Assembly: GCF_024346875.1 (NCBI RefSeq)
Contig: NZ_AP024872.1
Coordinates: forward strand, 186,001-250,000
From: Vibrio gallicus
Lineage (GTDB): Bacteria > Pseudomonadota > Gammaproteobacteria > Enterobacterales > Vibrionaceae
DNA length: 64,000 nucleotides
Direction of reading: 5' to 3'
Within the stretch, counting starts at the first letter, position 1. Each line of letters opens with the position of its first letter. Made by a program: the position numbers and the translations under genes. Below the pieces are notes generated by a model. It saw only the letters and a program-made list of their open reading frames with translations, was not told where the DNA came from and did not search any database. Positions 46,823 to 49,214 of this stretch are shown in pieces.

Positions 46823-46992
46823 TTCAAAGTCCTATTTAATTAAAAGTGAGTAAGTACTCGGGATTTATTATTGTTTCGGGCCGTGCCCGTTTGGTATGGG
46901 AGTAATTTAGATTTTTTATGTGAAGGTCTAATGAAGAACAGGTTGCAGTGCAGTGACGTTGTTATTGCAGATTTGTTTATGGTTGAGTTGTG

Positions 46993-47024
46993 CGTGTCTA
47001 CAGATCCCCGCCTTCGCGGGGATG
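46993..47024. repeat. Left remnant of compound repeat R5, interrupted by IS110
   Basis: This is the left part of a repeat copy: TGTCTACAGATCCCCGCC leads into the palindrome ATCCCCG...CGGGGAT at 47004-47023. The copy breaks off after GGGGATG. The expected continuation (ACGATTTTAAGGTGTGGTGG) resumes at 48282 on the other side of the insertion sequence. Confidence 0.9.
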
Positions 47025-47049
47025 CCTGTTAAACGACGTTGTCAAATTA

Positions 47050-48060
47050 TTAGGCCCCAAAAGCCTTAATAGGATCGTATTTTTCACCACTGCTCAACAA
47101 GTGATAAGCGATCCTAATTTGCTTCTTAGCTAAGATACACAAGGCTTCTTTATAACTCCTTCCTTCTGCCCTCAGTTTGTCGTAGTAAGCTTTAAAATGT
47201 TCATCATGCATTGTCGCTCCCCAAGCAGAGCAGAAGATTCTTTTCCTCAAATAGGTGTTTCCTCGTTTACTCAGTTTGCCTTTCCCTCTCCACGTTCCGC
47301 TTTGTCGAATGCTGGTGTCCAACCCAACAAACGCTACCCATGAATGACAACTCTTAACCCTTCTATCCAGTTGGCTTAAAAGAGCTGCAGTGGTCGAAGA
47401 GATGCCTGGAATACTGGCTAAGATATCGGTGTCTCTTGCGCTTTCGTTAGTTTCAACAATCAAGGCCTCAAGCTCTCGAAGCATACGCTTGTGAAGCGAC
47501 TTTAATTCCGCCAGTTTCGTAGCGAGCTCTTGTTGAACTTCATCTAACTCAAACCCTAAACCTTGATAAGTTTCCTCGAACAAACGAAGGCTACTCCCCA
47601 TTTTCTGTATTAGCTTCTCTATTGCCTTTATTTGGCCTACTTTCAATGTAATCAATAGATTACGGTCACTTAGTTTAGTCGGTTTAGGCAGGTTTCTCTC
47701 AGTAAGACACATTGTGGCTAGTGTCTCAGCATCGACGGGATCTGTTTTAGTCTTGCGAATGTTAGCTTTGCTATGCTTGCTCGATTGCAATGGATTAATG
47801 ACGTAGAGATTAAGATTATGCTTTGAAAATACAGAGACTAACTTGAGATGATAGTGGCCGGTTGATTCACAGATTATTTTACCTTTGTACTGCGATTCTA
47901 CGAGCTTTTCAGCCAACTTTTCTATCGACTCTACGGTGTTGTTAAGTTGATACAGAATGGTTTTTCCTGCCGTTAATCCAGCAAAATCTAGCGTCTTTTT
48001 AGAGACATCAATGCCAATAGCGGTACAGTTTTTTAACTGCGAAATAGAGAGAGTTTTCAT
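47050..48060 (-). CDS. IS110-family transposase (DEDD recombinase)
   Basis: A 336-aa recombinase. The RuvC-like DEDD residues are Asp18 (GIDVSKK), Glu65 (CESTGHY), Asp107 and Asp110 (KTDPVDAETLA). The C-terminal Transposase_20 domain begins IPGISSTTAALL and contains RQSGTWRGKGKLSKRGNTYL, with Ser253/254 the likely catalytic serine. IS110 recombinases work with a structured bridge RNA that pairs with both target and donor DNA. The coding sequence is full length with no frameshift, so the element may be active. Confidence 0.95.
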   Translation of the reverse strand: MKTLSISQLKNCTAIGIDVSKKTLDFAGLTAGKTILYQLNNTVESIEKLAEKLVESQYKGKIICESTGHYHLKLVSVFSKHNLNLYVINPLQSSKHSKANIRKTKTDPVDAETLATMCLTERNLPKPTKLSDRNLLITLKVGQIKAIEKLIQKMGSSLRLFEETYQGLGFELDEVQQELATKLAELKSLHKRMLRELEALIVETNESARDTDILASIPGISSTTAALLSQLDRRVKSCHSWVAFVGLDTSIRQSGTWRGKGKLSKRGNTYLRKRIFCSAWGATMHDEHFKAYYDKLRAEGRSYKEALCILAKKQIRIAYHLLSSGEKYDPIKAFGA

Positions 48061-48276
48061 AAATCTACTATCCTTACATTGAAAGGTAAGAGCGATTCAT
48101 GGCTTTTTCATATCGGTTAAAGATCTTGTGCGATTACCTGTTATAGAAGCTCAGAATCGCTAGAGCGAGAAGAGACTTTGGCATCCCCAGAAGCTCGAAG
48201 CCTTTGACGCGTTAGTCTCTTCTTCTCACCCTAGCTTAGTCCCAGATAATTTACTTTATTTGGGACTACTTCTTTT
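48061..48276 (-). ncRNA. Predicted IS110 bridge RNA
   Basis: Read 5'-3' on the minus strand, the region folds into three parts. (1) A 5' hairpin with the 8-bp stem TAGTCCCA/TGGGACTA (arms 48261-48268 and 48237-48244). (2) A loop closed by a long stem (arms 48214-48235 and 48159-48177: 10 perfect pairs, a 3-nt bulge and 9 pairs including two wobbles). Inside it are CGTCA (48205-48209) and GGGGATG (48182-48188), which match the left target and the complement of the right target. (3) A loop closed by GCGATTC/GAATCGC (48154-48160, 48092-48098). It holds TAACAGG (48137-48143) and ATATG (48109-48113), which match the element's right end and the complement of its left end. This is the target-loop/donor-loop plan of IS110 bridge RNAs. 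Exact RNA ends are unknown. Confidence 0.75.
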
Positions 48277-48279
48277 ATA

Positions 48280-48645
48280 TGACGATTTTAAGGTGTGGTG
48301 GTTGTGGAGCGTAGCGATGAATCGATGTATCGATGACGTGTCCCACAGGGCCAAAGAACCACAGGACCACAGAACCGCTTCTCCCTGTTGCTCGGGTTTA
48401 GGTTTGAAATCGAGACCATGATTGAGGTCTGAGTATCTACAGATCCCCGCCTGCGCGGGGATGACGGTTTTAAGGTGTGGTGGTTGTGGAGCGTAGCGAT
48501 GAATCGATGTTTCGATGATCTGCCTCACAGGGCCAAAGAACCACAGAACCACAGGACCACAGAACCGCTTCACCCCCGCCTGCGCGGGGATGACGATATT
48601 GGAGTGGTTGTGGGGCGTAGCGGTGGTTCGATGTATCGGTGAGAT
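48280..48645. repeat. Compound intergenic repeat, locus R5 (right part)
   Basis: This is the continuation of the copy cut by the IS110 element, then a complete unit and a partial one. TTTTAAGGTGTGGTGGTTGT occurs at about 48287 and 48470, and GAGCGTAGCGATGAATCGAT follows each time. The 8-bp word array (CCAAAGAA, CCACAGAA, CCACAGGA) precedes CCGCTTC. Strong palindromes lie at 48443-48462 and about 48573-48591. The array fills the gap up to the DUF1415 gene. Confidence 0.88.
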
Positions 48646-48677
48646 CACCGATAATCCAGGCTCTAGCCCCGTTCTAT

Positions 48678-49214
48678 CTACAAATACGGAAACAGCTTGG
48701 CTTTTTGCTTGTCGCTCAAGGCTTGTACGCGCTCGATGTTATTATCAGGGATAGCTTCAGGGTTAGGGTAGTGCTTTAAAACTCGTTCCATACTTTCTTC
48801 TCTGATCAAATGAATAGTAGGGTAAGGGGAACGGTTGGTTAGGTTCTCTGCATCATCTGGTTCTGTCCCACCAAAGCAATAATCAGGGTGGAAGCTCGCG
48901 ACCTGATATATGCCTTCATAGTCCTCTTGCTTCAATAGAGCATCTACCCAATCTAGAAAGAAGTTATAGTCCATAAAGTCATCGAGCATATTAGCTGCAA
49001 CAACTAAAGTAGTTTCTAATTGTTGGGGAGGCGTGCTATCGAGCTGTTTAAGTTCCAATAAGATAAATTCTAATAGGGCTTCTTCTGTTGTTGCATCGGA
49101 AATGGCTATTTTTATCTGATTTTTCTTATTTGGCTTGTGTGCAAAAGGGCACAAATTTAGCCCGATAACGACCTGCTCAAGCCACGCCTGTGTTTGTTGG
49201 TGTATGTCATTCAT
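48678..49214 (-). CDS. DUF1415 family protein
   Basis: A 178-aa cytoplasmic protein with the DUF1415 landmarks GLNLCPFAH near the N-terminus, DYNFFLDWVD in the middle and VASFHPDYCFGG followed by NRSPYPTIHLIREES. The conserved Cys and His residues suggest metal or redox chemistry, but no function is established. It overlaps nfsA by 4 bp, so the two are co-translated. Its 3' end lies beside repeat locus R5. Confidence 0.88.
   Translation of the reverse strand: MNDIHQQTQAWLEQVVIGLNLCPFAHKPNKKNQIKIAISDATTEEALLEFILLELKQLDSTPPQQLETTLVVAANMLDDFMDYNFFLDWVDALLKQEDYEGIYQVASFHPDYCFGGTEPDDAENLTNRSPYPTIHLIREESMERVLKHYPNPEAIPDNNIERVQALSDKQKAKLFPYL

Follow-up and report, generated by a model that had tools for sequence, protein, structure and literature searches.

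Among described mobile elements, IS621 stands closest to the locus analyzed here. According to the reports on it (PMC11208160, PMC11208158), IS621 has a DEDD-Ser recombinase and an RNA in its upstream noncoding end, this RNA forms a 5′ stem-loop, a target loop and a donor loop with four guides, and the system further includes handshake bases, a promoter across the joined ends and insertion into REP sequences. The present locus, in a 64-kb window from Vibrio gallicus (the window being the whole stretch of DNA that was analyzed), is like IS621 in these respects, including the order and polarity of the guides. It differs in that the protein is only distantly alike, the overlap of target and donor is CAT with a CA or AT core as opposed to the CT of IS621, and a U-G wobble is present in the left donor guide of all five elements compared here. 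The lengths of the target guides are also reversed, with 9 nt on the left and 4 nt on the right given for IS621 (PMC11208158) and 5 and 8 nt here. The core and the reversed guide lengths appear to be the special points of this element. A second solved relative in the same family is the ISCro4 transposase, which scored lower and was compared by protein alone. ISPpu9, ISPpu10 and ISPa11 may be likened to the present element by target site alone, having specific insertion into REP palindromes, and ISPpu9 and ISPpu10 are described as inserting at the same point of the REP (PMC1525189). The seekRNAs of IS1111 and IS110 elements work on the same RNA-guided principle, and natural reprogramming has been reported for the elements carrying them (PMC11187229). 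In IS1111 elements, however, a group marked by subterminal inverted repeats of 7–17 bp, the RNA lies downstream of the gene, and membership of that group was rejected here since the RNA region is upstream of the transposase. A limited literature search found no publication for the wording IS110 with Vibrio and “repetitive extragenic palindromic”, nor for Vibrio breoganii with IS110.

The earlier note on this DNA had read the stretch as an IS110 bridge RNA, and the guides, the fold, the transposase and the changes of guide with flank in relatives all support that proposal. Given an intact transposase, a fold with four guides, fitting handshake bases, a promoter motif at the junction of the ends, a precise insertion, and a guide that changes together with the DNA in relatives, the stretch almost certainly encodes a bridge RNA belonging to an IS110-group insertion sequence, in an uncharacterised subgroup. 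It falls in a family that was discovered recently, within which it had not been characterised, and does not represent a new kind of system. Four further elements with the same left end as the window element were found in whole-genome searches. The first, L011, is 98.5% identical to the window element and lies at a different place (G026:C1), in another repeat, in Vibrio breoganii FF50. L012 (element 1465-2724), from another genome of the same genus, has 82% protein identity to the window element, while L013 (40%) and L014 (about 35–36%) come from other families of the class.

The window protein has the N-terminal DEDD RuvC domain (PF01548) and the C-terminal domain with a conserved serine (PF02371) that characterize the IS110 family, and its only solved relatives at E 0.001 were IS621 (8wt6, phmmer E 6.4e-20) and ISCro4 (9t56, E 2.3e-17). 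The catalytic residues given for IS621 are D11, E60, D102, D105 and S241 (PMC11208158). In the phmmer alignment with 8wt6 these correspond to D18, E65, D107, D110 and S254, a mapping that assumes, from the motifs, that the numbers of the alignment chain run two ahead of those in the paper. All five residues are invariant in alignment A1, which holds four proteins, two of them identical.

Two comparisons fixed the ends of the element (Table 1), one with the tandem copy of the repeat that carries no insertion and one with L011, which has the same ends. At the left junction the flank ...AAAATCGT, which ends in CGT, meets the element at CATATAAAAG; at the right junction the element ends in ...TAACAGGCA (TAACAGG-CA) and the flank continues as TCCCCGCG. 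When joined, the flanks match the neighbouring tandem copy at 92% over 100 bp, and the match is gapless across the junction, so the element inserted precisely and nothing but the shared bases was duplicated. Thus there is a short core only and no target duplication, as in the IS110 group, and as in that group the noncoding end is long upstream (221 nt, CA to start codon) and short downstream (27 nt, stop codon to the end of the right CA). The element is present as a single copy in its own genome, in which the flanking repeats are abundant; CGTCATCCCC occurs there 19 times and the reversed pattern 4 times. In four of the five elements the right flank opens a palindrome with exact arms of 6–8 nt, the background being arms of at least 6 at 163 of 3000 random CA sites on the plus strand of the window. 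The right flank of L013 showed no palindrome by the exact-arm test, and ATTGC...GCAAT is visible there by eye.

Table 1. Positions in the window of the element, its target, its RNA and its gene.
Feature	Position	Strand	Remarks
Whole IS110 element	47023..48281	-	CA at left end to CA at right end; 1259 nt counting both copies of CA
Left target half CGT and first CA(T)	48279..48284	-	
CA and right target half, in REP-like palindrome CATCCCCGC-GAAG-GCGGGGAT	47004..47024	-	8-nt inverted arms; repeat family in own genome
Uninterrupted tandem copy of target repeat (model of empty site)	48419..48518	-	
Transposase/recombinase gene, 336 aa	47050..48060	-	PF01548 E 1.3e-24; PF02371 E 2.8e-15
5′ stem-loop of RNA	48237..48268	-	Fold; paired changes between window and L012 at A2 columns 17/42 and 20/39
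Target-binding stem-loop	48159..48235	-	Fold; covariation
Donor-binding stem-loop	48091..48160	-	Fold
Left target guide CGUCA	48205..48209	-	Equals left flank CGT + CA
Right target guide UGGGGAUG	48182..48189	-	Pairs with right flank CATCCCCG; last seven exact, U by wobble
Left donor guide UAACAGGUA	48135..48143	-	Equals right end TAACAGGCA save one U-G wobble
Right donor guide AUAUG	48109..48113	-	Reverse complement of left end CATAT, in 5/5 elements
Handshake position, target loop, CC (CA register)	48180..48181	-	Pairs with donor GG just before CA
Handshake position, donor loop, AA (CA register)	48107..48108	-	First base pairs with target T before CA, 5/5
-35 box TTGACA, right end	47040..47045	-	Joins -10 box only in circle; 11/12 consensus, spacer 17
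-10 box TATAAA, left end	48274..48279	-	Joins -35 box only in circle

Folding of the 221 nt upstream of the transposase gives a hairpin at the 5′ end followed by two internal loops, as had been claimed from the letters, with an energy of -67.5 kcal/mol for the RNA strand compared with -48.1 ± 4.2 for 200 shuffles, none of which was as good (z -4.62). Modules of the window element, L012, L013 and L014 were folded separately, L011 being left out as nearly the same as the window, and with the guides constrained to stay open all four showed a common plan. The target part of this plan consists of a stem with a bulge on its 5′ side (3, 3, 1 and 4 nt in the window, L012, L013 and L014), the left target guide, an apical stem and the right target guide, and the donor part consists of an outer stem, the left donor guide, an apical stem of 3 or 4 pairs and the right donor guide. 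In unconstrained folds the guides partly pair with one another. A lack of structural covariation had been named in the earlier note as evidence that would count against a bridge RNA, and changes on both sides of pairs were in fact seen. RNAalifold on the five elements gave 55 pairs, 16 of which were kept with both sides altered in at least one sequence, although its summed covariation term was slightly unfavourable (+0.72); L013 and L014 align poorly in the outer parts of the RNA. Among 13 stem pairs, picked after the folds had been viewed and without the outer stems and 5′ hairpin because of that poor alignment, all 62 of 62 cells pair and 5 pairs are altered on both sides, a result reached by 2 of 500 shuffles; shifting the partner column by 1–3 lowers pairing to 23–60%. 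No Rfam family scored above threshold in the 64-kb window, and the sole weak match in the RNA stretch was to a snoRNA model (E 0.66). We know of no Rfam family for bridge RNAs.

All four guides of a bridge RNA, left and right for both target and donor, can be read in the two loops. The earlier note had placed them as CGTCA at 48205-48209, the left target half; GGGGATG at 48182-48188, complementary to the right target half; TAACAGGTA at 48135-48143, matching the right end of the element with one wobble; and ATATG at 48109-48113, the reverse complement of the left end CATAT. Each was recovered on the minus strand at exactly these positions, and their order and strand polarity proved to be those of IS621. 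Chance agreement was assessed over the 2236 CAT sites on both strands of the window, each site receiving the score of the best left and right guide pair to be found within the 221 nt. For the window RNA, 8 of these sites score at least as high as the true target, every one of them a copy of the same repeat sequence CGTCATCCCCG; for L012, L013 and L014 no site reaches the score of the element's own target. In the donor test, which used 2999 or 3000 random CA sites for each element (2999 for the window) and left out the first 20 nt of the RNA region, the true score was reached by 2, 2, 0, 1 and 0 sites for the window, L012, L013, L014 and L011. These figures are somewhat optimistic since guide lengths were chosen after viewing the sequence, and the three Vibrio RNAs among those tested are close relatives. 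Chance as the source of the guide matches was rejected in that random sites rarely fit.

Comparison among relatives showed that guides change with the DNA they would read. The right target guides of the window, L012, L013 and L014 are four different sequences, each of which pairs with its own flank over 8 nt. In L012, TCGGTATG / UCGGUAUG fits the flank CATACCGG with 7 exact positions and a wobble; in L013, TCGCAATG / UCGCAAUG fits CATTGCGA with 8 exact, or 9 if extended; and in L014, CCGGAATG / CCGGAAUG fits CATTCCGG with 8 exact. The left donor guide behaves likewise: the three Vibrio elements combine AACAGGUA with right end AACAGGCA, and L013 and L014 combine AGCGGGUA with right end AGCGGGCA, so that the shift from AACAGG to AGCGGG represents two changes, each seen in guide and end alike. 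CGUCA is the left target guide of all five elements, with left flanks of CGTCA in four and TGTCA in L011; this guide and the right donor guide AUAUG are invariant and hence show no covariation. As the window element and L011 are nearly identical and L012 is close to them, the independent guide changes number about three. When guides were reassigned among the five targets, 2 of 120 arrangements reached the observed total, namely the true one and a tie in which the window and L011 are swapped. An alternative explanation could be an ordinary structured leader, i.e. an attenuator or other control of transposase translation, with the target picked by the protein and the guide matches due to chance or to a carried target-like sequence. 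Structured leaders are common and this region is directly upstream of the gene, but such a leader would not account for the joint change of guide and flank in L012, L013 and L014, for the change of the left donor guide with the right end, or for the rarity of fitting random sites. A leader serving a protein-only system was rejected on the joint variation of guide and flank in relatives, and the leader explanation as a whole is very improbable.

Relatives with the same loops at unrelated sites, which the earlier note had also regarded as adverse to its reading, were looked for. L011 does lie elsewhere, but its site TGTCATTCCCG departs from CGTCA + CGGGGATG by one mismatch and one wobble, its right target guide CGGGGAUG fitting its own flank CATTCCCG over 7 positions and a wobble. 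Most cases show zero to two mismatches between guide and target in the data of Durrant et al. (PMC11208160), and the fit of L011 lies in that range, although it would be weak if taken alone, with 51 of the 2236 window sites fitting equally well. The L011 guide fits the window target better than its own (8 vs 7.5 of 8).

The CA core of the earlier note is possible: CA is common to target and donor, but the overlap is the three bases CAT in all five targets and donors. The CT core dinucleotide of the IS621-like subgroup was found in none of the five, and on these sequences the core may be CA or AT, in neither case the CT of IS621. CA is favoured by the RNA base next to the left target guide, since the CGUCA that closes this guide is followed by A in all five elements. 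Two RNA bases after each right guide are described as pairing with the other DNA during strand exchange (PMC11208158), and such handshake pairing with the other DNA was found here. In the CA register the target-loop handshake pairs with the donor at its first base in every element and at its second base in 4 of 5. The first base of the donor-loop handshake pairs in all five, and the second fits in 3 (L012 by wobble, L013 and L014) and does not fit in the window element or L011. As a control, none of the five shows pairing of the first handshake bases with their own DNA. There is about an even chance that the element does have a bridge RNA but with AT as its core, so that cleavage would follow the T of CAT and the preceding C would be among the guided positions. 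Either register fits CAT, but handshake pairing with the other DNA is complete in the AT register (two bases in each loop, 5/5), better than the 5 and 4, 5 and 3 of the CA register. The second core base T of IS621 is reported to be almost invariant and held by the main chain of G63, and AT cores tested in IS621 to work, less well than CT (PMC11208158); the aligned glycine, G68, is conserved here. The T is moreover constant in all five targets while the next base takes three values, although this T may simply be part of the shared repeat edge. Against AT, the base after CGUCA is A and not U in 5/5, so the left target guide would miss the second core base, unlike IS621, and the first handshake bases pair with their own DNA too in 5/5 and hence do not discriminate. 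The DNA bases opposite the handshake positions hardly vary, so in either register the agreement is a fit and not covariation. All five elements keep a wobble, U facing G, where the left donor guide reads the first base of CA (window 48136), and none has the exact C; it is possible that this conserved wobble has a role in strand exchange.

The handshake bases and a promoter motif at the junction of the ends are new beyond the earlier note. In all five elements the joined ends contain TTGACA or TTGACT, a spacer of 17 or 18 nt and TATAAA, with 10 or 11 of 12 consensus positions. By comparison, both strands of the 64-kb window hold one site with 11 of 12, none with 12 and 20 with 10, and a scan within the inserted element found 3 weaker sites vs 2.1 expected. 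At the level of the motif, joining the ends would create a near-consensus sigma-70 promoter ahead of the RNA. By analogy with IS621 we infer transcription, circle formation, RNA binding and recombination as follows. The recombinase would excise the element as a circle, and the promoter formed by the joined ends (TTGACA, 17 nt, TATAAA) would start transcription of the RNA a short way inside the left end. Bound to the recombinase, the RNA would pair through its second loop with TAACAGG-CA-TAT at the joined ends and through its first loop with the target CGT-CA-TCCCCG, and strand exchange at a dinucleotide within the common CAT would leave no target duplication. The short left target guide CGUCA, present in 5/5, would read the CGTCA edge of REP-like palindromes and, as the stem arms are inverted copies, the edge so read would set the orientation; the longer right target guide would read the variable stem and appears to have been retuned to the host's own repeat.

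It is unlikely, though conceivable, that RNA and target are as described but that the window copy is a fossil that no longer moves. There is one copy in the genome and the relative L012 has a shifted frame, both of which would fit a fossil. The window copy, however, retains an intact frame with its catalytic residues, its two ends, the complete set of guides and the promoter motif at the junction, and the nearly identical element at another place in Vibrio breoganii FF50 suggests recent movement. The frame of the L012 transposase shifts soon after the first catalytic aspartate, and that copy may be dead, inactive or in need of frameshifting.

Tentatively, and with somewhat more doubt than belief, the subgroup could be described as a bridge-RNA lineage that divides labour differently from IS621, with a CA core where IS621 and its kin have a nearly invariant second T, a fixed five-base left guide on the CGTCA edge of REP-like repeats, and an eight-base right guide that changes between hosts to suit the stem of each host's repeat. 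If true, nature would here have provided a series of retargeted recombinases whose core specificity is new. Bridge recombinases are programmable tools for DNA insertion and IS621 prefers a CT core; with CA or AT at the core and a long guide for the right target half, this subgroup would extend the range of sites that can be used. As a naturally retargeted set, the elements show which guide positions evolution changes, and they suggest in a simple way how elements of this kind move with REP-like repeats between hosts.

The searches for relatives scored the best few candidates from a loose first look at each genome, with one genome per species. The window protein was matched in 3 of 329 genomes of the family including its own (E 1e-40), in the same 3 among 227 genomes of the genus (E 1e-60), and in 5 of 369 genomes of the class including its own (E 1e-30). 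Alignment A1 against 398 genomes of the phylum at E 1e-60 returned its own genome only, the class of 369 genomes searched from another centre gave the same two relatives and none new, the orders of the L013 and L014 hosts (3 and 1 genomes) gave no new relative, and no relative was found in viral contigs. There were 45 phage records matching the window protein, with less than 60% identity among the best 15 of the 45, and 2705 plasmid records, with less than 60% identity among the best 40 of the 2705. The L014 protein had no plasmid match and the L013 protein had one (Thermus), at E 1e-20. L015 and L016, both among the class matches, were set aside as another subgroup before any count, their ends being different (ACAGTATCT, by eye) and without CATATAA. 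Six plasmid elements were likewise not used as relatives, five having no CATATAA and the sixth, L024, having one on the other strand. Three plasmid elements, L021 (from Eikenella corrodens plasmid pMU1), L022 and L023, are distant IS110 elements with GTAT-containing ends by eye and, as seen by eye, belong to another subgroup.

Tandem arrays of REP-like repeats adjoin the element at window 48285-48660 and occur elsewhere in its own genome (G000:C2), e.g. at 102149-102554, 113352-114096, 119270-119933 and 201866-202323. Tandem Repeats Finder on 46900-49000 reported just two short arrays, of 16 and 8 nt. The REP-like arrays are regularly spaced, at about 124, 149 or 218 bp in three of them. Many of the repeats have the common edge CGTCAT but differing stems, and CGTCATNCCSG occurs in 85, 67 and 67 copies in three Vibrio genomes vs 13, 5 and 13 for the reversed pattern.
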